From Dulcicalothrix desertica PCC 7102 (GTDB taxonomy: Bacteria > Cyanobacteriota > Cyanobacteriia > Cyanobacteriales > Nostocaceae): a stretch of DNA of 64,000 bases. Shown in pieces: positions 18,750 to 45,220 of this stretch. Made by a program: the position numbers and the translations under genes. The notes beneath the pieces are model-generated. The model saw only the letters and a program-made list of their open reading frames with translations. It was not told where the DNA came from and did not search any database. Where the stretch lies: assembly GCF_003991905.1 (NCBI RefSeq), contig NZ_RSCL01000018.1, forward strand, positions 124,001 to 188,000, in the 5' to 3' direction. Numbering within the stretch: position 1 is the stretch's first letter; each line of letters begins with the position of its first letter.

Positions 18750-18917
18750 GTCATTAATTTTGGGGTGTTGGTTTGCAGCGGATGAGAGCGGATGTAACGG
18801 ATAATTTATTTGTTACAAACAAGATTTTCAAACTTTCGGCGCCTTCAAATAATGAATCAACTATCCGTTACATCCGTTTAACATCCGTTGCACTCCCTAC
18901 CAACCAAAATTAATGAC
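18750..18917. mobile_element. Hairpin MITE carrying ATCCGTTAC repeats
   Basis: The left end gtcattaattttgg and right end ccaaaattaatgac are perfect inverted repeats, and the pairing continues inward through agcggatgtaacggata versus tatccgttacatccgttt. The 168-bp unit can thus fold nearly end to end, with GGCGCC near the loop at 18840. It has no coding frame. This longer unit contains the ATCCGTTAC motif found at five other loci. Confidence 0.75.
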
Positions 18918-30422: not shown

Positions 30423-31019
30423 TCTCTTAAATGCCTCCGCGAGGTACATAATCAAAGTCGTATACGTGCAGATGGCAGTAGTACCTACGAGTAAATTTGG
30501 CATAATTTATTAGCAATCCGCAACAGTTGCTTGCCAGTTTCTATTGTGTTACGCATACACTTTAGTCCAGAGACTCTGCAACTACTCGACCCACTGATTA
30601 AGGATATTAAAAAAGAATTTACTCACGACCCTAGATTTTCTATCTTCTTCAAGGCAATTGAACGGTTAGGTAGTCCTAACGATGCATCGATAAAAATATT
30701 TTCTGAAACAGAGAAAGAGGAAGCTCTTAAATTACTCCAAAGCAAGTTATTTGGCGAGAATGGCTCATCACAAAATTATTCTTTTCCAGATAATCCTATC
30801 TGTTATGCATCCCGCCCCAACTCTTTAATAATTCGTGCCAACGGCAATGTGGGAAAGTGTACGGTCGCGCTCTACGACGAACGTAATCACATCGCCTCTT
30901 TACAACCTGATGGGACTCTCAAGTTAGTACCAGGTCGTCTTGCTCCCTGGTTGCGTGGGATTGAAAACCTGGATTTAGCTTCATTAGCTTGTCCCCTTGT
31001 TAATTTACCATCAAGTTGA
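30423..31019 (+). pseudogene. Radical SAM/SPASM protein remnant with stop
   Basis: The in-frame stretch from about 30438 reads REVHNQSRIRADGSSTYE, then TAA at 30492, then IWHNLLAIRNSCLPVSIVLR and onward to 31019. A continuous protein would have a Gln (CAA) or similar at the stop, so it looks like a nonsense change. The C-terminal half has the SPASM signature: ICYASRPNSLIIRANGNVGK with CTVAL, then CPLVNLP at the end. The N-terminal radical SAM core with CxxxCxxC is gone, so the cluster cannot form. The open frame from the TTG at 30531 is what remains. Probably the maturase of a lost peptide-modification locus. Confidence 0.7.
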
Positions 31020-31189: not shown

Positions 31190-31261
31190 GCAATATCAAA
31201 TTTTTTTTGTATTAAGTAAATTATTCATTACACACTACTATACTGCATGTAGAAGTGATAC
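31190..31261. repeat. Duplicated segment A, copy 1
   Basis: gcaatatcaaatttt ... tatactgcatgt ... gtgatac. About 72 bases, matching 42026-42097 with roughly 11 differences, same orientation. Contains tatact, so could be an old promoter region. Confidence 0.75.
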
Positions 31262-31360
31262 TGCAAAAGATAGAAAATTTCTCGAAATTGACCCCCCGTG
31301 AATTCGGGAGGAAAATAGTGCTTTTAGCTCACCAAATCATCGGGGGGTTGGGGGATTATA

Positions 31361-31464
31361 CTGTTCGGTTAAGAAAATTAGACAAAGAAGAAAACCCTGT
31401 AGAGACCGTATGAATTCGGTCTCTACATGCCCGGAATTATCGCAAAAAATTCTTAACCGAGCAG
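31361..31464. mobile_element. Mariner/IS630-type MITE, 104 bp
   Basis: Ends ctgttcggttaagaa and ttcttaaccgagcag are inverted repeats with one mismatch. Each end abuts TA (31359-31360, 31465-31466), the target duplication expected of IS630/Tc1-mariner elements. Inside lies a gtagagaccgta...ggtctctac palindrome (31399-31426). No coding capacity. Confidence 0.78.
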
Positions 31465-31530
31465 TATTGAATTACGAGTACCCCAACAAAGTTTTTTCAA
31501 TGGCTATAGAGCCTGTGTACTACTTTAATT

Positions 31531-32475
31531 TTATATTGAATCAGCAAATTCAACTTCAAATAGCTTCTTTTTTTGGAAGGATTGGGTAATTGTTGCTCCT
31601 GATCCTAACGCTCCAATCTTTTGTAGTAAACCTTCTGCTAGTTTAAATTGACCTGAGATTGAGTAAGAATCGTCTGTCGTCAATTCAATCGTTGTTGATA
31701 AAGCACCAGCTAGTCTTGTATGAACTAAACGCTCCCAGCTAGGTTCATAAGAAAGCCAGCTATATTTTTCTTTATCAATAGTCATGTTTGGAGTCCAAGG
31801 CTTTCCACGAAGCTTAATAAGCTGTGAATTATTTTGTGATTGATTTTTTTGATGTTCACCATTTCCTTCTATACCGCCTGCTCCAGTTATCTTAACTTCG
31901 GCATTTGCACCGTACTTATTACTCTGATTACTTACGTCTTGAAAAGTTATTTTTGTAGCACCTAAGTCTGCTAAGAGATTAATCAATTCTGCTTCTCGTT
32001 CATCATAAAGCAAATCGTCAAATGCTTCTATAGGAATATATTTGTTTATCTTCGTCTTCAAAGGATGTACTCGATAAAGATGTTCTGGCAAGGGATGTCC
32101 TGGTGGAAATTCAAGGTCATCAGGAATAGATGATAAAGAAATCGATTCCACTAAAGATTTCCATTTTTCAAGATTAAATTGTTTAAGAGTTTTAATAGCT
32201 TTGTCTAAAGATTGACCATCATTATTCAAGGTTTTTGGAGTTACCGACTCGGACTCAGACAACTGGCTTTGTTTCCATGTACTAATGACGCTCGTGGAAG
32301 CAATTTGAGCGAGTGTTCCAGTACCGTCAACCATTGCTGCAAAGCCGACAAAGAGTTTCTGCCAATTCTCCACTGGTTTTAAGTTATCAATTTCTTTGAT
32401 TATTGAAGAAAGTTTTTCAAAAAAAACGGGATGATTATCTGTTGCTATATAGATTATTTGCTTATAAGAATTCAT
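31531..32475 (-). CDS. Unrecognised 314-residue protein
   Basis: No family recognised. Start ATG at 32475 (MNSYKQIIYIATDNHP). There is no signal peptide; a weakly hydrophobic stretch lies near residue 43 (LFVGFAAMVDGTGTLAQIAS). The centre has HPLPEHLYRVHPLKTKINKY, then EREAELINLLADLGATKI. The C-terminal third has short beta-like T/S-rich segments (ALSTTIELTTDDSYSISGQF, GATITQSFQKKKLFEVEF) that might form a beta-sheet domain. Its upstream leader is a copy of the leader of the LysM gene at 41407, so shared regulation with that island is likely. Function unknown. Confidence 0.6.
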   Translation of the reverse strand: MNSYKQIIYIATDNHPVFFEKLSSIIKEIDNLKPVENWQKLFVGFAAMVDGTGTLAQIASTSVISTWKQSQLSESESVTPKTLNNDGQSLDKAIKTLKQFNLEKWKSLVESISLSSIPDDLEFPPGHPLPEHLYRVHPLKTKINKYIPIEAFDDLLYDEREAELINLLADLGATKITFQDVSNQSNKYGANAEVKITGAGGIEGNGEHQKNQSQNNSQLIKLRGKPWTPNMTIDKEKYSWLSYEPSWERLVHTRLAGALSTTIELTTDDSYSISGQFKLAEGLLQKIGALGSGATITQSFQKKKLFEVEFADSI

Positions 32476-32585
32476 GAACTACTCCAAAATATTCACTGTT
32501 AGGCGCCGCATTAATTGTTCTGACGGGGACGGGAAAGCGCAAACCATCAGCTTTTATCGACTTCCCCACCACCCCATATTTGCGC

Positions 32586-32685
32586 CATGATTAATCTTCT
32601 TTTTGATTGGGCTAAATCGGACAAAGTATCTGATATGTAGCGCTGTTCTCATCAGATTTGGTTGCAGTTAAGCTAAGAGCTTAAC
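32586..32685 (-). repeat. Duplicated leader B, copy 1
   Basis: About 100 bases closely matching 41571-41673 (shared blocks: gattgggctaa, ggacaaagtatct, gttctcatcagatttggttg, cagttaagct, gcttaac). On the minus strand it ends in a conserved purine-rich site and ATG. Here that ATG opens only a 13-codon frame (MAQIWGGGEVDKS) before the 314-residue gene; at 41574 the same site starts a LysM gene. It begins at the GH13 stop. Confidence 0.85.
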
Positions 32686-35137
32686 ACGCGCTAGCTAAAT
32701 CTAAGTTTTTTTGCAAGACTATAAACCCATTGGCAGGAATTACCACACGGATAATATTGTTAACAACAGGAATGACTGTTTCTAAGTTACTGACATTATT
32801 GCCACCATAACTCGTATCATCACTGTTAAATATTTCTTGCCAAAATCCTCCATTTAATTTTGAGTTCTCTATTTCGTACCCAAACGCAAAAGGTTGGTTG
32901 TTTAGACTTGCGATAACTAGCAATTTATCCTGATCGTCCCAACGTTGAAAGGCAATTACTCGGTTAGTATTGTGGATATGGATGATGTCTATGTTACGGG
33001 ATTTGAGCGCAAGATTCCCTAACCGTAAGCGAATGATGTCTTGGTAAAACTTGAATAAATACTGACCTGTATTTTGACGCTGATTCTCTAAGTCTTCTCT
33101 GTTATCGAGAAAATCTTCGTATCTATAAGGCTTTTGGGCACCAACTTCTTCACCCATAAAAAACATTGGTGTACCAGCACTCAAGATTGTCATACCGCAA
33201 GCAAAACGAGTGCGTGCTTCAGCATAACGTCGAGTTTCTCCAATTAGCAGTGCTGAATTAACGGCTGCAACGATAGTTCGTTTAGATTTTTTATCAGCAG
33301 AATTTCCTGCTTCGTCGTGGGATTCATTATATACCACTTTTTTATCAGCAGAAGCTGATAAAACTCTTGCAAAATAATCCATTGCTAAAGGTATATTTGT
33401 ATCAAGTCCAGCAGTTAAAATTAATTTAGCGTAGTTTGTCCCATCTTTCGCATCCCCTATTAGATTGTGGTAGAAATCAGCATACCAAGCTGCATCAAAT
33501 CCCAATCCTCCTTGCTCATGAGATTGAGTGACTTTATCCCAGTCAGAATGGTCTTCGGCAATGAGGATAACATCATTGTTGATGAGTTTAAGAGTTTTAG
33601 TTAGTTCTCTTAAAAACTTGGCACCAAAAATATTCACGTTAGCTAACTGCTTATCATCAGCTTCAAGCTTATTATATTTATGCATCGAGGTTGTTTGGTC
33701 TACTCGAAACCCATCAACATGAAACTCCTCTACAAGCGCAGCAGCACTGCTAATGAACAATTTTCGTACCATTTCTTCATGGAAACGTGGTGCAGCACCT
33801 GTAGACTCATTTTTAACATAACCTTTTGTGGGGTCAACATAGTCGGATGCTTTGCCCTCGTACCAATAATAAATATTATCTTCGTGACTATTAGAATCAT
33901 AGAACCACTGCGAGCGTTCGGCATCAGGGGTATAATGGTTGTAAACAACATCTAAAATTACGGCTATACCGCGACGGTGACATTCTCTAACGAAGTGCTT
34001 AAATTGGTCGCGACCTCCTGCACTAGACTCTAATGCAAAATAATGAGATGTTTCGTAACCCCAATTTACAGAATCGTCAAATTCTGACATTGGTAACAAT
34101 TCAATTGCATTGACTCCTAAATCAACTAGATAGTCAAGCAGGTTGATGGCATCTTCAAAATTACCCGGTCTATTTTTCCCAAACCCAAGCGCACCGACAT
34201 GAAGTTCGTAGATAATCAAATCTTCGACTCGACGCGCGATAAGTTTACCATCTCGAAATTCATCTTGCCAAAACTCTTGTTGGGGTAAAAATTCAATTTC
34301 TGGAAATACTTTTTTTTGAAAGTTTTTAGCTATTTTTTCTGGGTCAATAACTACAGAACAGCTTTTAGCTCCATCTACATCAAGGTAACTGCTGGGTATT
34401 TTTCCTTTTTCCTTGGCGTCCTTATCACCACCTTTACCTATCTGACAGCGAGAGTATAAATCTGTACGGTAGTAGGCACATTTTTCATCTTGCTTAACAA
34501 TTTTAAACATGTATGGTTTTTGGTCAAATTTAGAAAAATCTGCAAGTTCGGGAGATATACTTGTATCTGTTTTCCAAATACCATTTTCTTGACAACACAA
34601 CGGGATAGGCGCCTGTGTCGTATCAATTCCTGAACCATCATCCGCAATATAACCAGTAGTGCGCGTTCCAAATACAACTTCAACTCTTTTGGCATTAGGC
34701 GCCCAAACAGAAAATTGAATACCAGGTTCAGCTATACCTTGAAGATAATATTTTTGCGCTCCTAGGCGCCGACAATGAGTAAGGTAATATTCTTCTTGTT
34801 GGGGTTTGGTGCTTTTTGGTTGTAATTTAAACGAACGATGACATTCTTGCGTGTGTATATCATTAACTTCGGTAGGGATACCCCAAATATCTTGACATGA
34901 AGGACTATCTAATTTCACACCCCAGTGAAATTGCCAGCCAATTTGATTTTCATCTAATTCTACTGTTGCGGTGTAACAAGGACAACCATCTGCACCTGTT
35001 TCTAGTTGCATTTGTTTTAATGTCCATTGGTCAGAGTATTGACCACTTTCATTCCAACTACCTGTAAGACGAACGTTGGTAAAAACTTCTCTTTTAACAC
35101 CAGTAAAGTAAATAAAATTAACTAGGATTTTCGACAT
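32681..35137 (-). CDS. GH13 alpha-glucan enzyme with two N-domains
   Basis: 818 residues. Residues 1-100 look like a starch-binding beta domain (VRLTGSWNESGQYSDQWTLK), 135-275 like a CBM48 module (GIQFSVWAPNAKRVEVVFG), then a GH13 barrel from about 305. The catalytic set is complete: DVVYNH at 396-401, nucleophile Asp480 in DGFRVDQT, acid/base Glu528 in LIAEDHS, and Asp608 in NESHDEAGN. The closest classes are glycogen branching enzyme and maltooligosyltrehalose trehalohydrolase; I cannot decide between them. A C-terminal beta domain follows. It is the last gene of the AGE - PfpI-ankyrin - GH13 operon, 57 bases after the previous gene. Confidence 0.85.
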   Translation of the reverse strand: MSKILVNFIYFTGVKREVFTNVRLTGSWNESGQYSDQWTLKQMQLETGADGCPCYTATVELDENQIGWQFHWGVKLDSPSCQDIWGIPTEVNDIHTQECHRSFKLQPKSTKPQQEEYYLTHCRRLGAQKYYLQGIAEPGIQFSVWAPNAKRVEVVFGTRTTGYIADDGSGIDTTQAPIPLCCQENGIWKTDTSISPELADFSKFDQKPYMFKIVKQDEKCAYYRTDLYSRCQIGKGGDKDAKEKGKIPSSYLDVDGAKSCSVVIDPEKIAKNFQKKVFPEIEFLPQQEFWQDEFRDGKLIARRVEDLIIYELHVGALGFGKNRPGNFEDAINLLDYLVDLGVNAIELLPMSEFDDSVNWGYETSHYFALESSAGGRDQFKHFVRECHRRGIAVILDVVYNHYTPDAERSQWFYDSNSHEDNIYYWYEGKASDYVDPTKGYVKNESTGAAPRFHEEMVRKLFISSAAALVEEFHVDGFRVDQTTSMHKYNKLEADDKQLANVNIFGAKFLRELTKTLKLINNDVILIAEDHSDWDKVTQSHEQGGLGFDAAWYADFYHNLIGDAKDGTNYAKLILTAGLDTNIPLAMDYFARVLSASADKKVVYNESHDEAGNSADKKSKRTIVAAVNSALLIGETRRYAEARTRFACGMTILSAGTPMFFMGEEVGAQKPYRYEDFLDNREDLENQRQNTGQYLFKFYQDIIRLRLGNLALKSRNIDIIHIHNTNRVIAFQRWDDQDKLLVIASLNNQPFAFGYEIENSKLNGGFWQEIFNSDDTSYGGNNVSNLETVIPVVNNIIRVVIPANGFIVLQKNLDLASAC

Positions 35138-35194
35138 AACTTTGGGTGATAAAAAATAAGGGATTCAGAAGAGCTTTTAGTCTATTTGCTTGCA

Positions 35195-36916
35195 CTACTC
35201 GCTCATTTTTTCGCGAATTAGTTCGGCAATTTCGCTATATCCATAGGTAATAGCCATTTCTAGAGGTGTTTTGCCATTGTGTCCTCGTAAATCTAAGGCT
35301 ACATTGGCATCTAATAATACTTGTACAGTTTCTTTACTTCTGTGCCAAACGGCATCATGAAGCACTGTGTAACCGTTATATGCTCCTTGAGCATCAAGTT
35401 CTGCTTGACCGTGTTCAACCAACAATTTTATAACTTCTGCATGTCTGGAAAAAGCAGCTTTGTGAGCAGGGTTTGCTTTCATGAGGTAGTCACCGATGCG
35501 TGGGTTTGCTCCAGCATTTAAAAGTTCACGCACAATCAGAGTGTAACCTTTGAAGGAAGCAACCAGTAAAGGTGTTTGACCGTCGTCTCCAGAACCTACT
35601 ACTGGCGATTTTTCGTCAACATCCACACCTTCAGCAATTAAGGTTTTTACTGTTGCTAAGTCGTTATTGAGTACTGCTAGCATCAGTCGTTGTTCTTTAA
35701 CTGCTGCCTTGTCTCGCTTTTCTCGTTCTTCCAAATAGGTGCGAATTAATTTACCCCAATTTTCTTTTTCTGGTATTGTTCCACCCGCAGTCCAGTTTGG
35801 TTTATCGCCTATAAAATCCCAAACTGTGGCTTTTACACGATTTTGGATATCAATAATGGCGCCTTGGTCGAGTAAAAATTTAACCATTGCTGGTTTTTTT
35901 GCCCAAACTGCATCAATTAGAGGTGTATTACCAATCATTGCTGATTGCAAATTGATAAGAGCGCCGTGTTGTAACAGCAAGCGTGCGATATCGACGACTC
36001 CACCTTGAGCAGCTTTATGTAGCGCTGATGCCCCTAAGCTGCTATCAACTACATGTACATCGGCTCCTGCTTTCAGCAGATTTTCGGTCATTTGTACATA
36101 ACCATATCCTGCTGCAATCATTAATGGCGTTAGATGTAGGGGACCTCGCTTGTTAACATTTACACCTGATTTAATTAAATCACTGACTGTTACCAGGTCA
36201 TTTGCTTCTACTGCTGCTAGTAAGGCTAATTCTGGTTGTTGGCATTCTTTTTTCATTGTAAGTTGCTTGATTGGGTTTACAACCACCGAGGGTTGTCTTT
36301 TTGTCTCTATTATTTGTTGGGTAATAGTATCTACAAATAGTGCTACATCTTTCCCAGAACGACCTGTAACTAAATCATCATCGACAACTACACCTGTTGA
36401 TGAAGGTGTATAAACGGCGCCAGCGTTTATAATATCTGCAAGTACTACTTCATGACATATAACTTTGCGTCCTTTTAGCGTCTCTGGTCGGGGGGTTAAT
36501 ATCCACAATCCATGACAAAGTGCCCCTTTGATGATGCTGCGGTCTGCCATCGCTTTGGCAAAAAACTCAACTGCTGGTGCATGACGCGCTTGTTCAGGGT
36601 TGATTGGTTTTCCTTTTGGTGTTTCAAAATGCCGTAAGCGGACGCTTGTATAATTTGCTGCCATAATCACGGCTGCATAATCTTTAAGATTGACGTTTTT
36701 AAAGTCAATACTTACCTCTAATTGATGGATACGTTTTCCTATCTCGTCTACATCACTAATAAATTGTAGAGTTTTTTTATCCCAAAGTCGGGACATTAGA
36801 TGTACGGTAGCACCGAGTTCTGTAAAACGTTGTTGATAATGTTGAATTTCTTCAGGAATAAACTCGTTTTCTACCAAAATACCTATCTTTTTACCTTTGA
36901 GAGGCATGTCTCCCAT
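35195..36916 (-). CDS. DJ-1/PfpI domain fused to ankyrin repeats
   Basis: 573 residues. Residues 6-205 are a DJ-1/PfpI domain with nucleophile Cys134 followed by His135 in GALCHGLWIL and an acidic partner near the N-terminus (LVENEF). From about 226 to the end there are ankyrin repeats (TPLMIAAGYGYVQMTENLLK, ALHKAAQGGVVDIARLLLQH, GKTPLEMAITYGYSEIAELI), nine or so. A PfpI-ankyrin fusion is unusual. The enzyme class includes proteases, glyoxalases and deglycases; the ankyrin arm suggests protein binding. GGAGAA precedes the ATG. It lies 26 bases after the AGE-like gene, so the two are co-transcribed. Confidence 0.87.
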   Translation of the reverse strand: MGDMPLKGKKIGILVENEFIPEEIQHYQQRFTELGATVHLMSRLWDKKTLQFISDVDEIGKRIHQLEVSIDFKNVNLKDYAAVIMAANYTSVRLRHFETPKGKPINPEQARHAPAVEFFAKAMADRSIIKGALCHGLWILTPRPETLKGRKVICHEVVLADIINAGAVYTPSSTGVVVDDDLVTGRSGKDVALFVDTITQQIIETKRQPSVVVNPIKQLTMKKECQQPELALLAAVEANDLVTVSDLIKSGVNVNKRGPLHLTPLMIAAGYGYVQMTENLLKAGADVHVVDSSLGASALHKAAQGGVVDIARLLLQHGALINLQSAMIGNTPLIDAVWAKKPAMVKFLLDQGAIIDIQNRVKATVWDFIGDKPNWTAGGTIPEKENWGKLIRTYLEEREKRDKAAVKEQRLMLAVLNNDLATVKTLIAEGVDVDEKSPVVGSGDDGQTPLLVASFKGYTLIVRELLNAGANPRIGDYLMKANPAHKAAFSRHAEVIKLLVEHGQAELDAQGAYNGYTVLHDAVWHRSKETVQVLLDANVALDLRGHNGKTPLEMAITYGYSEIAELIREKMSE

Positions 36917-36942
36917 GATTTTTTCTCCTATATTAAGTTAAG

Positions 36943-38871
36943 TTATGTTATTGGGACAAATTCAACTACAATTTCTGCACCGATTTCTTCTTTACTAAGC
37001 TCGATTTGGAAGTTGTCGGGGTCGATGTTCGTGCGCTCAATTCCATCTATTGTGATTCTCTTAATTTCAAGAGTTCCCGGTTTAAAGAAATCAGGTAACA
37101 CGTTTATTGAAAGTCTTCGAGATTTAGCATCGGGTTTGAAGTAAAGGCAAAAAGGCTCTTTTTTCACATAAGTGCTAATGTAGATGTGAGCTAAGAAGTT
37201 CAGTTCAAAAGCGTGATAGCCAGAGATTGCATGACCTGCTTTTTTACCATGATCGCCCAATATATACGGCAAACCATCATCAGTAACACGGAAGTAAATA
37301 CCACCATAGTCATGGTTGAGGAAAAATAAATTCCAAAACGCCATCATCTCTCTTGCTAGACAGAGGTATTCTTCGTTGTTGGTGTAACCGTAAAGAATTA
37401 GGTAAGCCAAAATAGCTTGTTCTTGTTGCCAAAAATCTTTAGTGTTGCCCCAAACGAAATCAACTGGCATTCCGTTTTTAGGTTGTCGTTCTACACAATC
37501 AAAAATACCACCTCGGAACTGGTCTACTCCGTAAACCGCCATGTCACGTCCTAATTTTTCCGCAAACTTCATGATTTTTTCTGCTTGTTTCAAATCTGAG
37601 GTTGCATTGGCAACGCGCGTTAAATTCCAAGCAATTTTATGGTTGTGTCCAATTATTGCACGGTTTTGCTGCCATCCCCAAGTCTGGTCTGGCGTCCAAT
37701 CGTGAAAGAATCTTTCATTAATATACGGAATTTCGGGATTAGCATCAGGAAACTTTTCAACTATGAGTTTCGTCTGCTCGTCGAGCATTTTTTTGCAAAT
37801 ATCAACGAATTCAATCAAAAATTGCGTATCTGCTGATTTGGGAATTGGATTTAAAGCCAAAATCAAGTTAATTAGATAAGCTGGTATATGATCGCCGATG
37901 GAATTCCAATTCTTTTTAGATTTATTGCGATATCCATCATCATCGCGATTGAGAGCATCGCTATCGGTTGTGAGAGTTGCGTAATCTAGGTGCGAAAAGT
38001 GACCACCATATTCAGATGTATCAAGATAGAACTTGTTAAAGGTGTGAACTGTACGCTTGATATCTTCGAGTACTTCCCATTCCTGGGTAATACGGTAGTA
38101 TTGAGCCAATCCTGCCAAAGCATAAATTTGCTCGTAAAGTGGAATTGTGTTCTTGTCTTCCTGGTTTGTAGAAGGAACAATCAACTTAGAACCGCGTTTG
38201 CCATGTGCCCAAAAACAGTACTTGCCATCATGGCTCAAACTGCGGAATGTCTCTCTTTGATACTCAACACCAGCACGTGCAGCATGTAAATATCTTTCGC
38301 ATCCTGTAAGTAAATATGCAGAGGAAAACCCGTAAGTTAATCTTGAAAGGGTAGCGCACTCCTGGATAGTGTCGTCTGTTGGTTCGCCAGCAATACCTAA
38401 GTTAGTTCGATAAAGAGTATAGTCATTGATATTAAGTTGATAATTTGGCTTATCACCAAACATATCTTGCAACCAAGTATCAGCCAAACGACTAATTTGG
38501 TTTAACCACCAATGCGTTGCTTCAAATAAGTACTCACCATCTTCAGAGTTGAGGATATGAACAGTACGTGCATCAAATTGAGCTTTTTCTTTGTCTTCAA
38601 GATAAACCCCATACAATGCTACCAAGCGACCGAGGCGAATATACTTTTTCACCGTCTGTGCTGGGTCTTTGGAATTAAAATCGGAAGGGGTTGGAACGCG
38701 GTCCCGCTCCAGTCCATCTAAGTTCTTTAAGACTCTAAAATTTGTTTCTGTACCTATCGAAACAGTAAATTCGTCACCGCTACGGCATTTAATATCAAAC
38801 GTACCTTTTTCCGATTGAATAGCGGTAATAGTTCCCATTAATGCAACACTTGCAGAAAATCTTGTTTTCAT
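36943..38871 (-). CDS. AGE-like epimerase with N-terminal beta domain
   Basis: 642 residues. Residues 1-115 form a beta-rich domain (ALMGTITAIQSEKGTFDIKC), then an (alpha/alpha)6-barrel resembling N-acylglucosamine 2-epimerase and cellobiose 2-epimerase: GHNHKIAWNLTR, DFVWGNTKDFWQQEQAILAY, NHDYGGIYFRVTDDG, and GHAISGYHAFELNFLAHIYI, in that order. Conserved His residues (NHK, GYHAFE) are in the expected places. A short beta tail ends the protein. Such enzymes epimerise or isomerise sugars; the substrate cannot be told. It starts the AGE - PfpI-ankyrin - GH13 operon. Upstream lies a 202-base gap to a LysM gene. Confidence 0.82.
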   Translation of the reverse strand: MKTRFSASVALMGTITAIQSEKGTFDIKCRSGDEFTVSIGTETNFRVLKNLDGLERDRVPTPSDFNSKDPAQTVKKYIRLGRLVALYGVYLEDKEKAQFDARTVHILNSEDGEYLFEATHWWLNQISRLADTWLQDMFGDKPNYQLNINDYTLYRTNLGIAGEPTDDTIQECATLSRLTYGFSSAYLLTGCERYLHAARAGVEYQRETFRSLSHDGKYCFWAHGKRGSKLIVPSTNQEDKNTIPLYEQIYALAGLAQYYRITQEWEVLEDIKRTVHTFNKFYLDTSEYGGHFSHLDYATLTTDSDALNRDDDGYRNKSKKNWNSIGDHIPAYLINLILALNPIPKSADTQFLIEFVDICKKMLDEQTKLIVEKFPDANPEIPYINERFFHDWTPDQTWGWQQNRAIIGHNHKIAWNLTRVANATSDLKQAEKIMKFAEKLGRDMAVYGVDQFRGGIFDCVERQPKNGMPVDFVWGNTKDFWQQEQAILAYLILYGYTNNEEYLCLAREMMAFWNLFFLNHDYGGIYFRVTDDGLPYILGDHGKKAGHAISGYHAFELNFLAHIYISTYVKKEPFCLYFKPDAKSRRLSINVLPDFFKPGTLEIKRITIDGIERTNIDPDNFQIELSKEEIGAEIVVEFVPIT

Positions 38872-39072
38872 GACTTAAACCTTCTTAAAGTAAATGTAGG
38901 CATGTTGATATCCTTTTCTCATTATTGATTTAACTTAGACATTCAAAAAAAATGATTATATAAATCAAACTTATTTACTTTCATTTTTTATATAAATTTC
39001 CGTGAAATCATTCTCTATAAAGAAAACTAATTTATGCTGTTATTTTTATTTAAAAATATACGCCAGCATCTA

Positions 39073-39864
39073 TCAAAAAGTAGGGGTTAAAAAATCTTCT
39101 GGCTTAACATCGTAACCACCAAAATCATCTACATACCGCAGAATAGAAGTGCCAAATTCATCACTAGTTACTTCGTTTTTAAGCAAAAGATTTGCTAGTC
39201 CATAGGCGCCTCTAAGATGTGCCCCTGCTAAAATGCCAGAGATGGTGATTGTGATGGTTTTTGACCGTCCATTATCAATAAATGTTTTTTGTTGACCCAG
39301 ATAATTATCGATTGACTTTCCCTGCTGTCTGAGGGTATCGTTAATACGCTGCCAATTCAGAGCAAAAGCCTCACGAATACAGGCTTCTTGAACATTAGGC
39401 GAATTCATAAATTTTGATTTGCTATCAACACCCCTCTTTAGAGTCCATGTACCGCGCCAATAATTTTTATCAACTCCATTTCCTCCACCAGTATAAGGAT
39501 TAGAAGTGTTATAGTAACCGAGGTCAATCAGTAGTGCTTCTCCAAATTGGTATTTACCAATAAAACCAAGTGTATTTTCTACTTGATATTGCCCTGGATT
39601 TCCTGCTGGTAGTCCTGATTCAAATGCGCCTAATGCTTCTAGCATATCCCTGAAATTACCTTTGCTCGCACCAGGATTGGGTTGAGGTTGATTAACTCCA
39701 GGTATAATAAGTGTCATCCCAACTGTGATTTGGTTGGGGTCATTGCCAATGCGAGCGCGATTTGCTTCGTAAATTTTACGCCATGATGCTTCACTTCCAT
39801 CACCATAAAATTTATCAGCAATTTTGGATAGGGTATCACCAGTTTGTACGGTATATTCGCTCAT
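39073..39864 (-). CDS. LysM plus lysozyme-like domain protein
   Basis: 263 residues. Residues 2-54 form a LysM module ([20 protein letters not shown] ... GMTLIIP). A Pro-rich linker leads to a C-terminal domain starting [20 protein letters not shown], with a Glu in the place expected of a transglycosylase/lysozyme-like fold (FESG) and a [16 protein letters not shown] segment. No signal peptide, so it is cytoplasmic or leaves by a non-Sec route. The LysM should bind peptidoglycan or similar glycans. It is the third of three LysM genes in a row. Peptidoglycan hydrolase activity is inferred. Confidence 0.7.
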
Positions 39865-40037
39865 GATTGTATCCTTTAGTAAATTAAGTGTAATTAGAAT
39901 CTAACGAAATAAAAGAAATGGTTTGGAATTGATAACTTATTTGTCAATATAAATTTATTGACAAGTTTTGATTACAGAATGTCAGCTTAATTGGCGAACA
40001 TAGCGATATTATTAATAATTGCTAAACAAGCTCATTG

Positions 40038-40287
40038 CTATTTATATAGGGAGCATCCAGTGAAGGGCAGAGCGACTTTTTTAGACCTACCGTATATCTT
40101 GCACCATTCTCAACAAGCTCAAAGAAACCGGGCTTCTTTACGAGATACTAAGGGTTTCTAGCAAAATTTTTCTCAAGAAGCCCGGTTTCTCGGACTGGTG
40201 CAAGATGTGAGCTACCGTATAGTCACGTTTCTGGCGCAAAGTACTTATGTTTCTTCCACTCATTGGATGCTCCCTGTATATAAATAG
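40038..40287. mobile_element. Nested hairpin MITE, 250 bp
   Basis: Outer ends are ctatttatatagggagcatc and, inverted, tggatgctccctgtatataa followed by atag. Inside are further nested inverted repeats: cttgcacca / tggtgcaag (from about 40098 to 40205) and agaaaccgggcttctt / aagaagcccggtttct (from about 40114 to 40186). It looks like one palindromic element inserted into another. No coding frame. The remaining flanks (39865-40037 and 40288-40385) hold nothing recognisable. Confidence 0.8.
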
Positions 40288-40385
40288 GTAAAAGCCTTAC
40301 TCCAGGCGGGAAGAGTGAATTTAAACGTGTAAATTATCAACCCGACTATTACTCATGCTCAAATGAGTAAATTCTTTTCATTTTG

Positions 40386-41057
40386 TTAGAAGGGTCGTTG
40401 TCCCGTAACATTTCCCGGAGCAACATAACGGCAGACAAGTGTTGTTTGTCCATCAGGCCCTTCAGCAACAGCGCATCCTACTTCAGTTGTATTTCGCCAA
40501 ACCATCTGAGTATAATGACCGACATCACCAAAATTGCCAGTTGTACTAAAGTTTGGACTTGGACCCATCACAAAATGCTGTTTTTCATTTCCCCAGCTCT
40601 CAACCATTTGAGTATAGCTAAAATGACCTGATGTACCCTTCCAAAGATTTTCTCCTTCCCCATCTCGTTGACTATGTTCAAATGAGCGATTAGCAGCAAG
40701 ATGATTTGCCCAGTCTTGAGCATGACTTGCCAAAGTATCAGACCAAGCCAGAGGTGGAACACCGACTTCTGCACGATAACGATTGTGAGCATTGAGGATT
40801 TCTCCTGCCATACCTCCAACCGATGGGCTAGGCAATGGACTAGGCGATGGACCAGGTGCAGGTGATGAACCAGACCCATCAGGAATACAGAGTTCCTGCC
40901 CTGCCTGTAACGTTGCCGCATCTGCGTCTGTAACAAGCGCACCATCTGCTTTTCGGATTTCACCCCAACGCTTACCATCCCCTAAATGTTGTTGAGCAAT
41001 CGCATACAGCGTATCTCCTGCTTTAACAGTGTATGACTTACCGGATGTACAAAGCAT
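40386..41057 (-). CDS. LysM plus CAP (SCP/PR-1) domain protein
   Basis: 223 residues from the ATG at 41057 (GGGAGTTGA upstream; an earlier ATG at 41108 is less likely). Residues 8-56 are a LysM (SYTVKAGDTLYAIAQQHLGD). A low-complexity Pro/Ser linker (PAPGPSPSPLPSPS) follows, then a CAP domain with ILNAHNRYRAEVGVPPLAWS, HLAANRSFEHSQ, GENLW and GHYTQMVWRNTTEVGCAVAE, the full CAP signature including both His and both Glu. No Sec signal. CAP domains bind lipids or act as proteases/toxins in various systems. It is in the LysM cluster. Confidence 0.9.
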   Translation of the reverse strand: MLCTSGKSYTVKAGDTLYAIAQQHLGDGKRWGEIRKADGALVTDADAATLQAGQELCIPDGSGSSPAPGPSPSPLPSPSVGGMAGEILNAHNRYRAEVGVPPLAWSDTLASHAQDWANHLAANRSFEHSQRDGEGENLWKGTSGHFSYTQMVESWGNEKQHFVMGPSPNFSTTGNFGDVGHYTQMVWRNTTEVGCAVAEGPDGQTTLVCRYVAPGNVTGQRPF

Positions 41058-41219
41058 AAATTCAACTCCCAAAAATAAATTACAAAATTGCTGTGACTGA
41101 CTTTGCACCTAGCTCAATCGCCAGGGCGAACGGTATCAACAAAGATGTCAATCTTGTTGCCGATAATTGCAGTTAACTATAACGAATTGCATGAATCTTG
41201 TACTCTAGTGGTTAGAAAC

Positions 41220-41307
41220 CGCAGCTATACAGATATGCCTTGGCTCACAAGTAAAGCTAAATTTCTAATTTAGTCCACGCGCGTGAACTCAACGTCGTAT
41301 AGCTGCG
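41220..41307. ncRNA. Structured intergenic element, long inverted repeat
   Basis: cgcagctatac (41220-41230) and gtatagctgcg (41297-41307) are perfect 11-base inverted repeats, with a ~66-base interior containing cacgcgcgtg. It lies in the 350-base gap between two LysM genes. A tRNA-like look (ctctagtggttaga, gcgaattcgattcgc) was checked and no cloverleaf fits. It may be an RNA hairpin or an insertion; strand unknown. Confidence 0.4.
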
Positions 41308-41406
41308 AATTCGATTCGCTAGATATTTGTGCAGTAGAGCTACTGCCTATGTCACCTTGGATAGTGCAATCCAAAGTTATCTAGCAACGTGTTCCGCCAA
41401 GCTGTA

Positions 41407-41574
41407 CTAGGGAATTTGCAAAACTTGTCCAGGACGCAGAAAATTCTTATCGCTTCCAATTACCGCTTTGTTTGCTTCATATATCTTTTGACCATTGGCA
41501 TCGGAACCATCACCATAGACAGCTAGTGCAATTTTCGATAGGTCATCACCGGGCTTGACTGTGTAAGTTGACAT
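41407..41574 (-). CDS. Single-LysM 55-residue protein
   Basis: 55 residues from the ATG at 41574 (AGGAGATTAATC upstream; the open frame extends to 41610). It is almost entirely one LysM: STYTVKPGDDLSKIALAVYG, DGSDANGQKIYEANKAVIGS, ending GQVLQIP. No signal peptide. Single-LysM small proteins of this size occur as tail- or spike-associated parts in contractile injection systems and phages, and also as stand-alone glycan binders; neither can be decided here. The whole leader is duplicated upstream of the 314-residue gene. Confidence 0.85.
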   Translation of the reverse strand: MSTYTVKPGDDLSKIALAVYGDGSDANGQKIYEANKAVIGSDKNFLRPGQVLQIP

Positions 41575-41673
41575 GATTAATCTCCTTTTTGATTGGGCTA
41601 ATGTGGACAAAGTATCTAATGATGTAGCCTTGTTCTCATCAGATTTGGTTGCAGTTAAGCTCTTGGCTTAACT
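41571..41673 (-). repeat. Duplicated leader B, copy 2
   Basis: Promoter/5' leader and ribosome site of the LysM gene; near-identical to 32586-32685. Ends in agctcttggctta near 41670, corresponding to agctaagagctta in copy 1. Confidence 0.85.
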
Positions 41674-41790
41674 ATGTTTTAACTCTTTCCTCTCTGATAG
41701 TATCTTTTTGACTCGAATATATAATTCATTATTTTTCGCTCTTTTGAGAAGATGAGAGTTAATTATTTTTCGGTCTGATAATATCTCGTC

Positions 41791-42051
41791 GTGATATGGA
41801 TGATGTTTAATGCTGCTGAGATTGTAGAATTATACCAGCAGCATACGGAAGATACAGGACAGTACACAGAACAAAAAACTTCTACAAGCTTAACAACTGA
41901 AGACCCACAATTAAAGCTAGAAATTACCGAAGACCTTTTACGTGACCATTTGTCAAAATGGCGCCTTTTTCACCAAGATGTAGAATTTGATACTTCTAAA
42001 TACAAAAACTTGGTTGTAATTGCCAGCAATATCAAATTTTGTTTGTGTTAA
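41791..42051 (+). CDS. Hypothetical 86-residue protein, doubtful
   Basis: ATG at 41791 (better start possibly MMFNAAEIVE, 41800). Polar, helical, with KLEITEDLLRDHLSKWRLFH; no family recognised. The last codons run into duplicated segment A (42026-42097), so the natural C-terminus may be lost. Could be a gene truncated by that duplication. Confidence 0.35.
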   Translation: MIWMMFNAAEIVELYQQHTEDTGQYTEQKTSTSLTTEDPQLKLEITEDLLRDHLSKWRLFHQDVEFDTSKYKNLVVIASNIKFCLC

Positions 42052-42097
42052 GTAAATTATCCGTTACAAACTTCTATACTGCATGTATAAGTGATAC
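42026..42097. repeat. Duplicated segment A, copy 2
   Basis: Matches 31190-31261 over 72 bases in the same orientation with about 11 differences. The rest of 42100-42367 is AT-rich and holds nothing recognisable. Confidence 0.75.
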
Positions 42098-42657: not shown

Positions 42658-43182
42658 ATGACCAATATTTTAGTAAGTGATACTAACCCTGAAACCACAG
42701 AGCTATTAGTAAAATGTTTGGAAACAGCAGGGTTTGAGGTAATTAGTACAGAGAACGGTGCTGTTCGTGTTCATCGAACACATAATAAATTCTTTACTAC
42801 CACAGAGTATCAACAATCAAATATTATATCGACATCTATATTTCCACCCATTCCTAGGCTGCGTGACGTGTTTGAGTTCATTGAATTGAATTATCGTCAA
42901 AATATTAAGCTAAAAGAAGTAGCTCAAGCAGTCGGTTATTCTTCAGCTTACTTAACCGACTTAGTGCGGCGCCTGACTGGAAAAACAGTAAATAATTGGA
43001 TTATCGAGCGTCGTATAGAGGAAGCAAAGCGCTTGCTGTTAGAAACTAACTATTCTGTTGAAAAGATTGCTTTGGATGTAGGCTATCAAAATATGAATCA
43101 TTTTTACTGTCAGTTTCGCAATTATTATAAAAATACTCCCCGTGCTTGGAGAGCGCAGCAACAATCTTACAGTACTAATTAA
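42658..43182 (+). CDS. AraC-family regulator with truncated receiver
   Basis: 174 residues. The last ~100 are a complete AraC/XylS double HTH (VFEFIELNYRQNIKLKEVAQ, then SSAYLTDLVRRLTGKTVNNW, then DVGYQNMNHFYCQFRNYYK). The first ~37 residues (MTNILVSDTNPETTELLVKC ... EVISTENG) are the beginning of a response-regulator receiver, but the phospho-acceptor Asp and the rest are absent. Most relatives with this HTH carry the full receiver. So it is either deleted or works without phosphorylation. It borders the LysM island divergently and could control it. ATG at 42658 after aggagag. Confidence 0.83.
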   Translation: MTNILVSDTNPETTELLVKCLETAGFEVISTENGAVRVHRTHNKFFTTTEYQQSNIISTSIFPPIPRLRDVFEFIELNYRQNIKLKEVAQAVGYSSAYLTDLVRRLTGKTVNNWIIERRIEEAKRLLLETNYSVEKIALDVGYQNMNHFYCQFRNYYKNTPRAWRAQQQSYSTN

Positions 43183-43321: not shown

Positions 43322-45220
43322 ATGGTACGGTTAGAACTTTGGCAATGGCTGGTTTTGGGACTTCCCATAGCATCTATTATTGGTTTTCTGTTAGTTGCTG
43401 CGGGAATGCAAATCCATGAATGGCGCCTAAACTGGATATGGGCAGTTTTTACTGTTACGCTGGTTGTATGGCGCCAGTTGCTAGTAAAGTGGACGAAACC
43501 AGTTTTAACGCAAGTTGAGGAAGTAGTCGCAGAAATAAGTCGCGATTTAGAGTCACAAGATGATACGGTAGCGGTAGGAACTAAAGCGAGTCAGGTTGAA
43601 AGTGCTTTAAAAGAAGTTTTGGAAGCATCGCAAAATGACGTGGCGATATGGGAAGATATACAAACTTTTTGGCAACGGTGTCTTGATTTAGTCGCAGCGA
43701 TTGCGCGAATATATTATCCTGACGTTAAATATCCTCAGCTAAATATATATGTTCCGCAAGCTTACGGGTTAATTCGGGGAACCGTCAATGATATGGATAG
43801 CTGGATGCAAAAGCTATCACCCGCATTAAACCAGGTAAGTATTGCCCAAGCATTTGAAGCATACGAAGTATATCAAAAGCTCGAACCTTCTGCACGTAAG
43901 TTATTAAGAGTTTGGAATGCGGCACAATGGATATTTAACCCCGCTGCTGCAGTAGCTAAACGCGCTTCGCAAAGCTACAATAACAAAGCAAATCAGCAAT
44001 TACTGGGAAATTTAAACCAGTTGATGCGCGAAGCTGCTTTAAGAAACTTGTGTAAGCAAGCTGTGACTCTCTACAGTGGTAAAGCTGATACATCTACTTT
44101 TATACCAACACCGACATTACCACAGCAGCCCAAAACCGAAACTTTACGTGATATCCTTATTCAAGCTCAACCTGTAGAACAAGTCGAAATTAAACCCGTT
44201 AATATTCTTATTGTCGGTCGTACAGGCGCCGGAAAAAGCAGTTTAATAAATACACTATTTCAATCTGAGTTAGCCGAAGTAGACGTATTACCAAGCACCG
44301 ATAAAATACAAAGCTATCATTGGCAAACTGATAATAAAGAAACATTAACACTTTTAGATACACCAGGTTACGAACAAGTGAATCGAGGCGCCTTACGTGA
44401 TACAGTTTTAGAATATACACACAAAGCAGATTTACTATTATTAGTAACTCCAGTCCTCGACCCTTCATTACAGATAGATGCAGACTTTTTGCGTGATATA
44501 AAAGCCGAAGTTAATGACTTACCTACAATATCAATTGTTACCCAAGTTGATAAATTACGCCCCATTCGAGAATGGGAACCACCTTATGACTGGCAATATG
44601 GAGAGAAACCAAAAGAAGTTGCAATTCGTGAAGCTGTGCAATATCGTGCAGAATTACTTAGCAACTATTGCGATATCATATTACCTGTTGTAACAAGTGA
44701 TATTAAAACAAATCGTCAAGGATGGGGAATAGATACATTATCATTGGCGTTAATCGAATCAATTAACCCAGCTAAACAACAGCGACTAGCTAGATTTTTG
44801 CGTGATGTTGATGCGAAAAGTCTAGCAGCAGCAAAGATTATTGATAGCTATACGTTCCAAATGACAACTGCACAAGGAGTGACTGCGTTATTGAAAAGTC
44901 CTGTGCTGCAATTTATTTCTACTGTGTCTACAGGTTCACCTGCACTTGCTAACTTATTAGCACAGAAAATACCCGCAGAGCAGTTACCTATTGTTATAGG
45001 TAAGTTACAAATAGCATATGAATTATTTTCATTGTTAAATCCAGATAGCGCAAACCCTCTTAGTTTTGACTTGCGGTCATTATGGACGCTGCTTCTAGAT
45101 AATACATCGGCGCCTGACCGTAATGCATGGGCATTTGGAAGGGCTTTAGTTGAGTATTGGACACAAAACTTAACAGTTGAACAACTAAGACAAAGGTTTG
45201 AGTTTTATTTGCAATCCTAG
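43322..45220 (+). CDS. Membrane-anchored GTPase (dynamin/Era-like)
   Basis: 632 residues. Two membrane helices come first (LVLGLPIASIIGFLLVAAG, then LNWIWAVFTVTLVVW), then a helical domain, then a GTPase domain: P-loop GRTGAGKSS from Gly299, switch II DTPGYEQ from Asp346, and TQVDK as the NKxD-type base-recognition motif. The C-terminus is helical. This matches the cyanobacterial YcjX/DUF697-like membrane GTPases of unknown function. GGGACAGGG is the ribosome site before ATG 43322. It stands alone. Confidence 0.86.
   Translation: MVRLELWQWLVLGLPIASIIGFLLVAAGMQIHEWRLNWIWAVFTVTLVVWRQLLVKWTKPVLTQVEEVVAEISRDLESQDDTVAVGTKASQVESALKEVLEASQNDVAIWEDIQTFWQRCLDLVAAIARIYYPDVKYPQLNIYVPQAYGLIRGTVNDMDSWMQKLSPALNQVSIAQAFEAYEVYQKLEPSARKLLRVWNAAQWIFNPAAAVAKRASQSYNNKANQQLLGNLNQLMREAALRNLCKQAVTLYSGKADTSTFIPTPTLPQQPKTETLRDILIQAQPVEQVEIKPVNILIVGRTGAGKSSLINTLFQSELAEVDVLPSTDKIQSYHWQTDNKETLTLLDTPGYEQVNRGALRDTVLEYTHKADLLLLVTPVLDPSLQIDADFLRDIKAEVNDLPTISIVTQVDKLRPIREWEPPYDWQYGEKPKEVAIREAVQYRAELLSNYCDIILPVVTSDIKTNRQGWGIDTLSLALIESINPAKQQRLARFLRDVDAKSLAAAKIIDSYTFQMTTAQGVTALLKSPVLQFISTVSTGSPALANLLAQKIPAEQLPIVIGKLQIAYELFSLLNPDSANPLSFDLRSLWTLLLDNTSAPDRNAWAFGRALVEYWTQNLTVEQLRQRFEFYLQS

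Follow-up and report, generated by a model that had tools for sequence, protein, structure and literature searches.

The 64,000-nucleotide stretch of the Dulcicalothrix desertica PCC 7102 genome (11.4 Mb) analysed here (the window; contig NZ_RSCL01000018.1, positions 124,001 to 188,000) carries on its minus strand three closely spaced genes, encoding an AGE-family enzyme resembling sugar epimerases and isomerases, a fusion of a DJ-1/PfpI domain with an ankyrin domain, and a GH13 enzyme. This core spans 32681-38871 and recurs in many genomes. The reading favoured here, with moderate confidence, is that it forms a single operon for an intracellular module that handles α-glucan or glucose and that includes an ankyrin-tethered DJ-1-type enzyme. 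Likeness in enzyme families and gene order further suggests homology between the trio and the enzymes of icfG, a cyanobacterial operon for carbon control. The initial annotation had placed the trio within a seven-gene system at 31190-42097, together with three LysM genes and a gene of no recognised family. All seven genes are present and all lie on the minus strand, as seen from open reading frames and, for most, Pfam matches. The tight spacing described for the trio is also borne out, with gaps of 26 nucleotides between AGE and PfpI and 57 nucleotides between PfpI and GH13.

An AGE-based scan of genome contigs gave 162 relatives, the best 80 of which, with a Nostoc plasmid locus added, make up a set of 81 related loci, some of them short and ended by contig ends. 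The AGE tree of 82 rows splits into 24 rows of one type and a 58-row clade to which the window belongs, and linkage was counted over 57 loci of this clade (56 counted loci plus L062, a clade member by the tree that carries neither gene and is scored as a miss). A PfpI match starts 12-199 nucleotides after the AGE match in 45 of the 57, and 37 have a GH13 gene, at 40% identity or more, on the AGE strand and no more than 12 kb away in either direction; several of the misses are at contig ends. In the converse survey, which started from GH13 in 291 genomes of the same order (E≤1e-130, at most three candidates scored per genome), this GH13 was found in 13 genomes including the window's own, and in all 13 an AGE gene lies no more than 12 kb away, on the contig and strand of the GH13 gene. 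Ten of these AGE genes are of the window's type (that of G254 in pieces) and three are of the 43-44% type (G280, G024 and G217). Finally, GH13 (E≤1e-100) is present in 43 of 50 genomes surveyed from the 57 clade loci (all save those of L031, L034, L036, L041, L052, L062 and L090), at a single place in 41 and as two partial matches on different contigs in the other two. Chance adjacency of AGE, PfpI and GH13 is ruled out by the order survey, the clade counts and the 50-genome survey. The objection foreseen in the initial annotation, that the genes might be found together in no other genome, does not hold for the trio, since AGE, PfpI and GH13 are found together in many. Horizontal transfer has probably spread the trio; Nostoc sp. 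ATCC 53789 has a further copy on its conjugative plasmid pNsp_a (locus L090), a possible vehicle.

The enzymes of the trio look functional, to judge from their conserved residues and from selection. In comparison with Calothrix sp. PCC 7716, the closest relative among those fetched (AGE identity 91%), the three genes have no internal stops and give dN/dS ratios of 0.29 (AGE), 0.35 (PfpI-ankyrin) and 0.41 (GH13); the trio is under purifying selection. The assignment of particular conserved residues to catalysis in all three enzymes follows the families to which they belong.

The AGE-family protein (36943-38871, 642 amino acids) matches the Pfam GlcNAc_2-epim profile with 58.1 bits against a cut-off of 23.4. 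Its AlphaFold model, built from 16 sequences (pLDDT 83.6, pTM 0.89), predicts an α/α toroid, and the 39 best Foldseek matches to it are all AGE-family enzymes. The best matches in the PDB are the glucose-2-epimerase of Runella slithyformis (8h1l/8h1k), followed by cellobiose 2-epimerases and mannose isomerase (5x32), the likeness in fold being expressed by a Foldseek E-value of 1.8e-15, TM scores of 0.72 by target and 0.49 by query, and a root-mean-square deviation of 5.9. GlcNAc 2-epimerases (8bry, 2gz6 and 1fp3) rank 29th or lower. Because the ranking favours glucose-2-epimerase over the GlcNAc enzymes, the model points to neutral glucosyl sugars, which would fit a GH13 partner. The GHN and FWQQ motifs are common to the window protein and the superfamily, and four histidines (H294, H328, H409 and H553) are identical in 82/82 sequences. 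A PDB profile search with the AGE alignment gave only two weak matches. The modelled protein differs from the superfamily in an extra β-rich region at its N-terminus.

The GH13 enzyme (32681-35137, 818 amino acids) matches Pfam Alpha-amylase with 90.7 bits. Its best matches in NCBIfam and in PDB sequences are to GlgB and TreZ, with which it shares the catalytic domain and the acidic residues. At least 97% of 34 sequences retain D480, E528 and D608, presumably the Asp/Glu/Asp catalytic triad of GH13. In the fusion protein (35195-36916), the DJ-1/PfpI domain occupies 36287-36916 and matches Pfam DJ-1_PfpI with 43.5 bits (cut-off 26.6), whilst the ankyrin domain, at 35195-36271, matches Ank_2 with 175.4 bits. 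Of 65 PfpI sequences, at least 97% retain E16, C134 and H135, these counts, like those for GH13, being made over sequences that cover at least 85% of the query; the three residues presumably have the roles of the conserved Glu and Cys-His of DJ-1/PfpI proteins. Both the profile match and these residues ally the domain with the DJ-1/PfpI superfamily, from which it differs in being fused to ankyrin. Against the DJ-1/PfpI/YhbO subfamily model it scores only 59.9 bits, well below the cut-off of 139.05.

The initial annotation counted ankyrin as part of the combination, which holds in that an ankyrin family recurs near AGE, but not in that it is a constant partner. The ankyrin half of the window protein can be aligned over its whole length with ankyrin proteins encoded near AGE in L027, L029, L030, L039, L047, L050, L057, L058 and L077 (two in the last), at 36-42% identity over 301-345 columns, and the members have in common a non-repeat insert that marks them as a specific family. 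The family protein of L058 also bears a SnoaL_2 domain, and L023 has a shorter match near AGE. In the 291 genomes of the order (E≤1e-25, at most seven candidates scored per genome) there are 17 places in 16 genomes. Eleven, including the window's own, approach full length, with E<1e-70 and open frames of 359-580 amino acids; the six partial ones are not counted. Ten of the 11 lie on the contig and strand of an AGE gene, nine of them within about 4 kb and that of G272 some 14 kb away. Among the 50 locus genomes, the search at E≤1e-40 gives 16 places in 14 genomes, ten of these places having the GH13 gene no more than 5 kb off, on their own contig and strand. In the window and in Calothrix PCC 7716 this ankyrin domain is joined to PfpI. 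The fusion is a Rosetta-stone clue to a putative physical association. A second type of ankyrin fusion, in which a prenyltransferase-type toroid domain is joined to ankyrin repeats, occurs near AGE in L012 (where the domains were read) and in L020, L021, L053 and L055 (assigned by clustering).

These properties suggest how the module could work. The GH13 enzyme would cut or transfer α-glucan or maltodextrin chains, and the AGE-like enzyme would convert the released sugar at C1/C2. The DJ-1/PfpI enzyme, held alongside by the ankyrin domain, would remove or convert reactive carbonyl products. Control would have shifted from the partner-switching proteins of the icfG operon to, possibly, an AraC-type regulator.

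A number of observations weigh against this interpretation. The GH13 enzyme scores 198.8 bits against the NCBIfam equivalog model for GlgB (cut-off 577) and 186.6 bits against that for TreZ (cut-off 538.8), so far below both cut-offs that glycogen is a guess as the substrate. In the AGE-family protein, the motif G-H-N-x-K replaces the G-H-N-x-E of the solved structure 8h1k; the sequence alignment is weak (E 0.018), but the motif lines up. The glutamate of this motif is important for catalysis in the AGE family, and the lysine (K412) is present in 82/82 of the AGE sequences. Because this change from glutamate to lysine is invariant, ordinary epimerase chemistry cannot be assumed and the protein may not be an epimerase. 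The linkage has its exceptions: GH13 is absent from 7 of the 50 AGE genomes, and this GH13 is missing from G169, whose AGE gene (56%) is of the window's type. The surveys also overlap, since no fewer than 5 of the 13 genomes with GH13 in the order survey also belong to the locus set (by coordinates, G186, G216, G238, G280 and G217 are the genomes of L013, L011, L017, L074 and L070). The pairwise identities of the three proteins correlate over 27 sets (r=0.73-0.87, with 0 of 2000 permutations as high), which speaks for the trio as a unit, but the test is inflated by shared ancestry. The AGE clade spans 15 phylum-level groups, but binned genomes may carry stray contigs and scattered phylum labels are no proof of transfer. 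Promoter- and terminator-like sites at the locus did not exceed chance in a scan.

The ankyrin partner is a further difficulty. It is found beside the set in only 10 of the 50 genomes of the window's AGE type and is unlinked in four Rhodoplanes genomes and at two further places in G317, and G051 has a near-full-length copy without AGE on the same contig and strand. The nine linked cases in the order besides the window's own adjoin the other AGE type (41-45% identity), and the ankyrin thus goes with both types. Lastly, a simple glucan model offers no explanation for the thiamine pyrophosphate (TPP)-dependent, GMC, SnoaL, EthD and glyoxalase enzymes that are added to the trio in many loci.

It is these additions that favour a different reading, in which the trio forms the sugar-donor end of a larger, specialised small-molecule pathway, biosynthetic or degradative, that also employs a TPP-dependent enzyme, a GMC oxidoreductase, SnoaL-type and EthD proteins, a glyoxalase and an aldo-keto reductase, the window carrying a reduced version. 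Beside AGE, the TPP cluster is present in 25 of the 81 loci, GMC in 19 and glyoxalase in 13 (each family named from one representative), and 108 of the 109 accessory members counted are on the AGE strand. Many loci also carry a second PfpI, SnoaL, EthD, aldo-keto reductase and other genes near AGE, and the copy on pNsp_a is part of a long same-strand set. The accessory genes nevertheless vary between loci, none is in the window set, and compact loci exist, such as L049 (AGE, PfpI, GH13 and a second PfpI) and L045 (AGE and GH13 only). This pathway seems a doubtful though not negligible alternative. Genes for Nif11-like leader peptides, possibly peptide precursors, occur inside the AGE cluster of L090 (annotated) and of L068 and L072 (by clustering). 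A bolder version of the glucan-handling module can be put forward tentatively: a widespread, horizontally moved sugar metabolon in which an ankyrin scaffold couples a DJ-1-type enzyme to the lysine-altered AGE-fold enzyme and to GH13 in a novel sugar reaction, the icfG operon being a specially regulated branch of it.

The initial annotation had grouped all seven genes as one system, possibly for glycan remodelling, as injection-system cargo or for a stress polysaccharide. Such a system would act on the cell wall or on extracellular glycan, or be delivered as cargo of a contractile injection system. The seven genes do occupy only 10.9 kb on one strand, and the absence of signal peptides from the LysM proteins agrees with what is seen by eye, no clear signal segment being apparent at their N-termini. 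The lysozyme-like part of one of them is named from a single PHROG match, at a modest 35.5 bits, to a baseplate hub/tail lysozyme, and the genome has three sheath genes. But recurrence in other genomes extends only to the trio: at tblastn E≤1e-8, the LysM-CAP and LysM-lysozyme genes are found in 0 of the 81 related loci and the 314-amino-acid gene in 1 (L010). In addition, the LysM-lysozyme gene lies 201 nucleotides from AGE, the LysM genes are 349 and 521 nucleotides apart, and the LysM-lysozyme protein, with four other relatives in the window genome, belongs to a multicopy family. A single seven-gene system is thus very improbable. As for the cargo proposal, the sheath genes (L128, L129 and L130) are on contigs C3, C19 and C16 and the locus is on C18; cargo may be encoded apart from particle genes, so their location only lowers the likelihood of this proposal. 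An anti-phage defence island is scarcely credible. PADLOC does pair the ankyrin protein with PDC-M72A (107 bits) and GH13 with a GlgB component (87.9 bits), but both hits have the look of generic matches to ankyrin repeats and GH13 domains, AGE, the 314-amino-acid protein and the two longer LysM proteins have no PADLOC match, and the linked genes in other loci are metabolic. For these generic matches and metabolic neighbours the defence reading was set aside.

The LysM-CAP and LysM-lysozyme genes are therefore probably local neighbours and not parts of the set. LysM-CAP (40386-41057, minus strand, start at 41057 from its ribosome-binding site) has a CAP match of 95.7 bits, and the Pfam LysM matches of the two longer LysM proteins are 39.9 and 35.9 bits. 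The LysM-lysozyme gene lies at 39073-39864 (minus strand), and its lysozyme-like part gave no PDB sequence match. Between these two genes there is an imperfect inverted repeat pair at 40043-40280 (29 nucleotides, 83%, 180 nucleotides apart). The stand-alone LysM protein of 55 amino acids (41407-41574, minus strand, start at 41574 from its ribosome-binding site) is 60% identical to the LysM domain of the lysozyme-like protein and matches LysM-bearing PHROGs. The 314-amino-acid protein (31531-32475, minus strand) is an uncharacterised, lineage-specific companion of the trio and not part of its core. It has no family match above cut-off in Pfam, NCBIfam, PHROG or PADLOC, its structure model from two sequences has a pLDDT of 32.5, and its gene is present in 8 of the 291 order genomes including the window's own. 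It evolves fast, with a dN/dS of 1.30 (dS 0.092) against Calothrix PCC 7716, in contrast to the trio (0.29-0.41). In the window this gene lies below GH13, but in L010 the order is a LysM match, the 314-amino-acid gene and then AGE, and in Calothrix PCC 7716 a 110-bp match to the 55-amino-acid LysM gene directly precedes the 314-amino-acid gene.

The duplication of the border segments noted in the initial annotation is real. The outer repeat, D1, is present at 31190-31261 and 42026-42097 (90% identity; strand unspecified). The inner repeats, D2/D3, pair 32586-32685 with 41572-41672 through two gap-free alignments of 88% and 90% identity. The segment at 41572-41672 is the leader and ribosome-binding site of the stand-alone LysM gene (minus strand), and that at 32586-32685 is another copy of that leader (minus strand), which heads a 13-codon frame before the 314-amino-acid gene. 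This duplication is best read as the scar of a local duplication and loss. The D1 core recurs on six other contigs and at 18793-18827 of the window; its copies are partly inverted and D1 resembles a small element of the miniature inverted-repeat transposable element (MITE) type. The border repeats were rejected as the ends of a mobile element, as D1 is dispersed in the genome and D2/D3 is a gene leader. A segment of 124 bp at 41862-41985 is probably a remnant; it matches internal sequence of an ATPase-like frame on contig C65 (94%) and on contig C3 (91%). Just outside the seven genes, a short frame at 30531-31019, possibly also a gene remnant, resembles the C-terminal end of radical SAM/SPASM maturases, scoring 17.7 bits against a cut-off of 525. 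On the other side, upstream of the set, 43322-45220 encodes a dynamin-like GTPase that scores 55.4 and 40.5 bits against LeoBC/LeoA.

Beyond the bounds given in the initial annotation there is also a candidate regulator of the set, an AraC-type gene at 42658-43182 (plus strand, divergent from the set; HTH_18, 80.7 bits). It is conserved near the set in Calothrix PCC 7716, and relatives with 51-55% identity over about 100 amino acids are found directly before AGE in L013 (the same as L124), L017, L123 and L127. The connection is weakened by the presence in the window genome of 30 AraC-type places, three of which are about equally close to the L124 regulator. This gene may serve in place of the partner-switching regulators of the icfG operon.

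The initial annotation knew of no described match. No paper describing an AGE-PfpI-GH13 set was found in the open-licence literature, but the enzymes do resemble the metabolic half of the icfG operon. Published passages give this operon in Synechocystis sp. PCC 6803 as slr1852-slr1862, with Slr1855 an AGE-type epimerase and Slr1857 a GH13 enzyme (GlgX2/isoamylase), and as salt-repressed. Passages of PMC12329169 list slr1856, slr1859, slr1860 as IcfG, slr1861 as a kinase and anti-SigC, and slr1857 as an isoamylase, and passages of PMC3564720 give ratios of about 1.6-2.7 for slr1853 and slr1854 under ethanol exposure. Three of the related loci with the other AGE type (L063, L071 and L075) have the order PfpI, AGE, STAS, GH13, STAS, SpoIIE, HATPase, the neighbours being named from one representative per cluster. 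From AGE onwards this order fits the published gene list so far as those passages give it, a likeness that rests on gene order and family names and not on Synechocystis sequences.

The window set has homologous AGE and GH13 enzymes and a nearby PfpI gene, at low identity, and is best taken as a relative of the icfG operon and not a member. Its AGE is 38-41% identical, and its GH13 mostly 25-33% identical, to loci of the icfG AGE type, L070 and L074 being exceptional in having a GH13 61-62% identical to that of the window. Unlike the icfG operon, the set has no STAS, SpoIIE or HATPase gene (by Pfam, over nine proteins encoded between 30531 and 45220), and its PfpI is fused to ankyrin. A search of the window genome for IcfG relatives (E≤1e-10) gave only two partial matches (41% over 149-301 and 29% over 339-489 of 493). 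The passages on the icfG operon describe control of glucose and inorganic carbon through its regulators, and they state no reaction for the epimerase and PfpI genes. Here the related enzymes appear as a separable module that has none of the icfG regulators, in which ankyrin is a recurring partner and the AGE motif is invariably altered. Thus, a compact three-gene operon of this kind makes the joint role of these enzymes open to experimental test.

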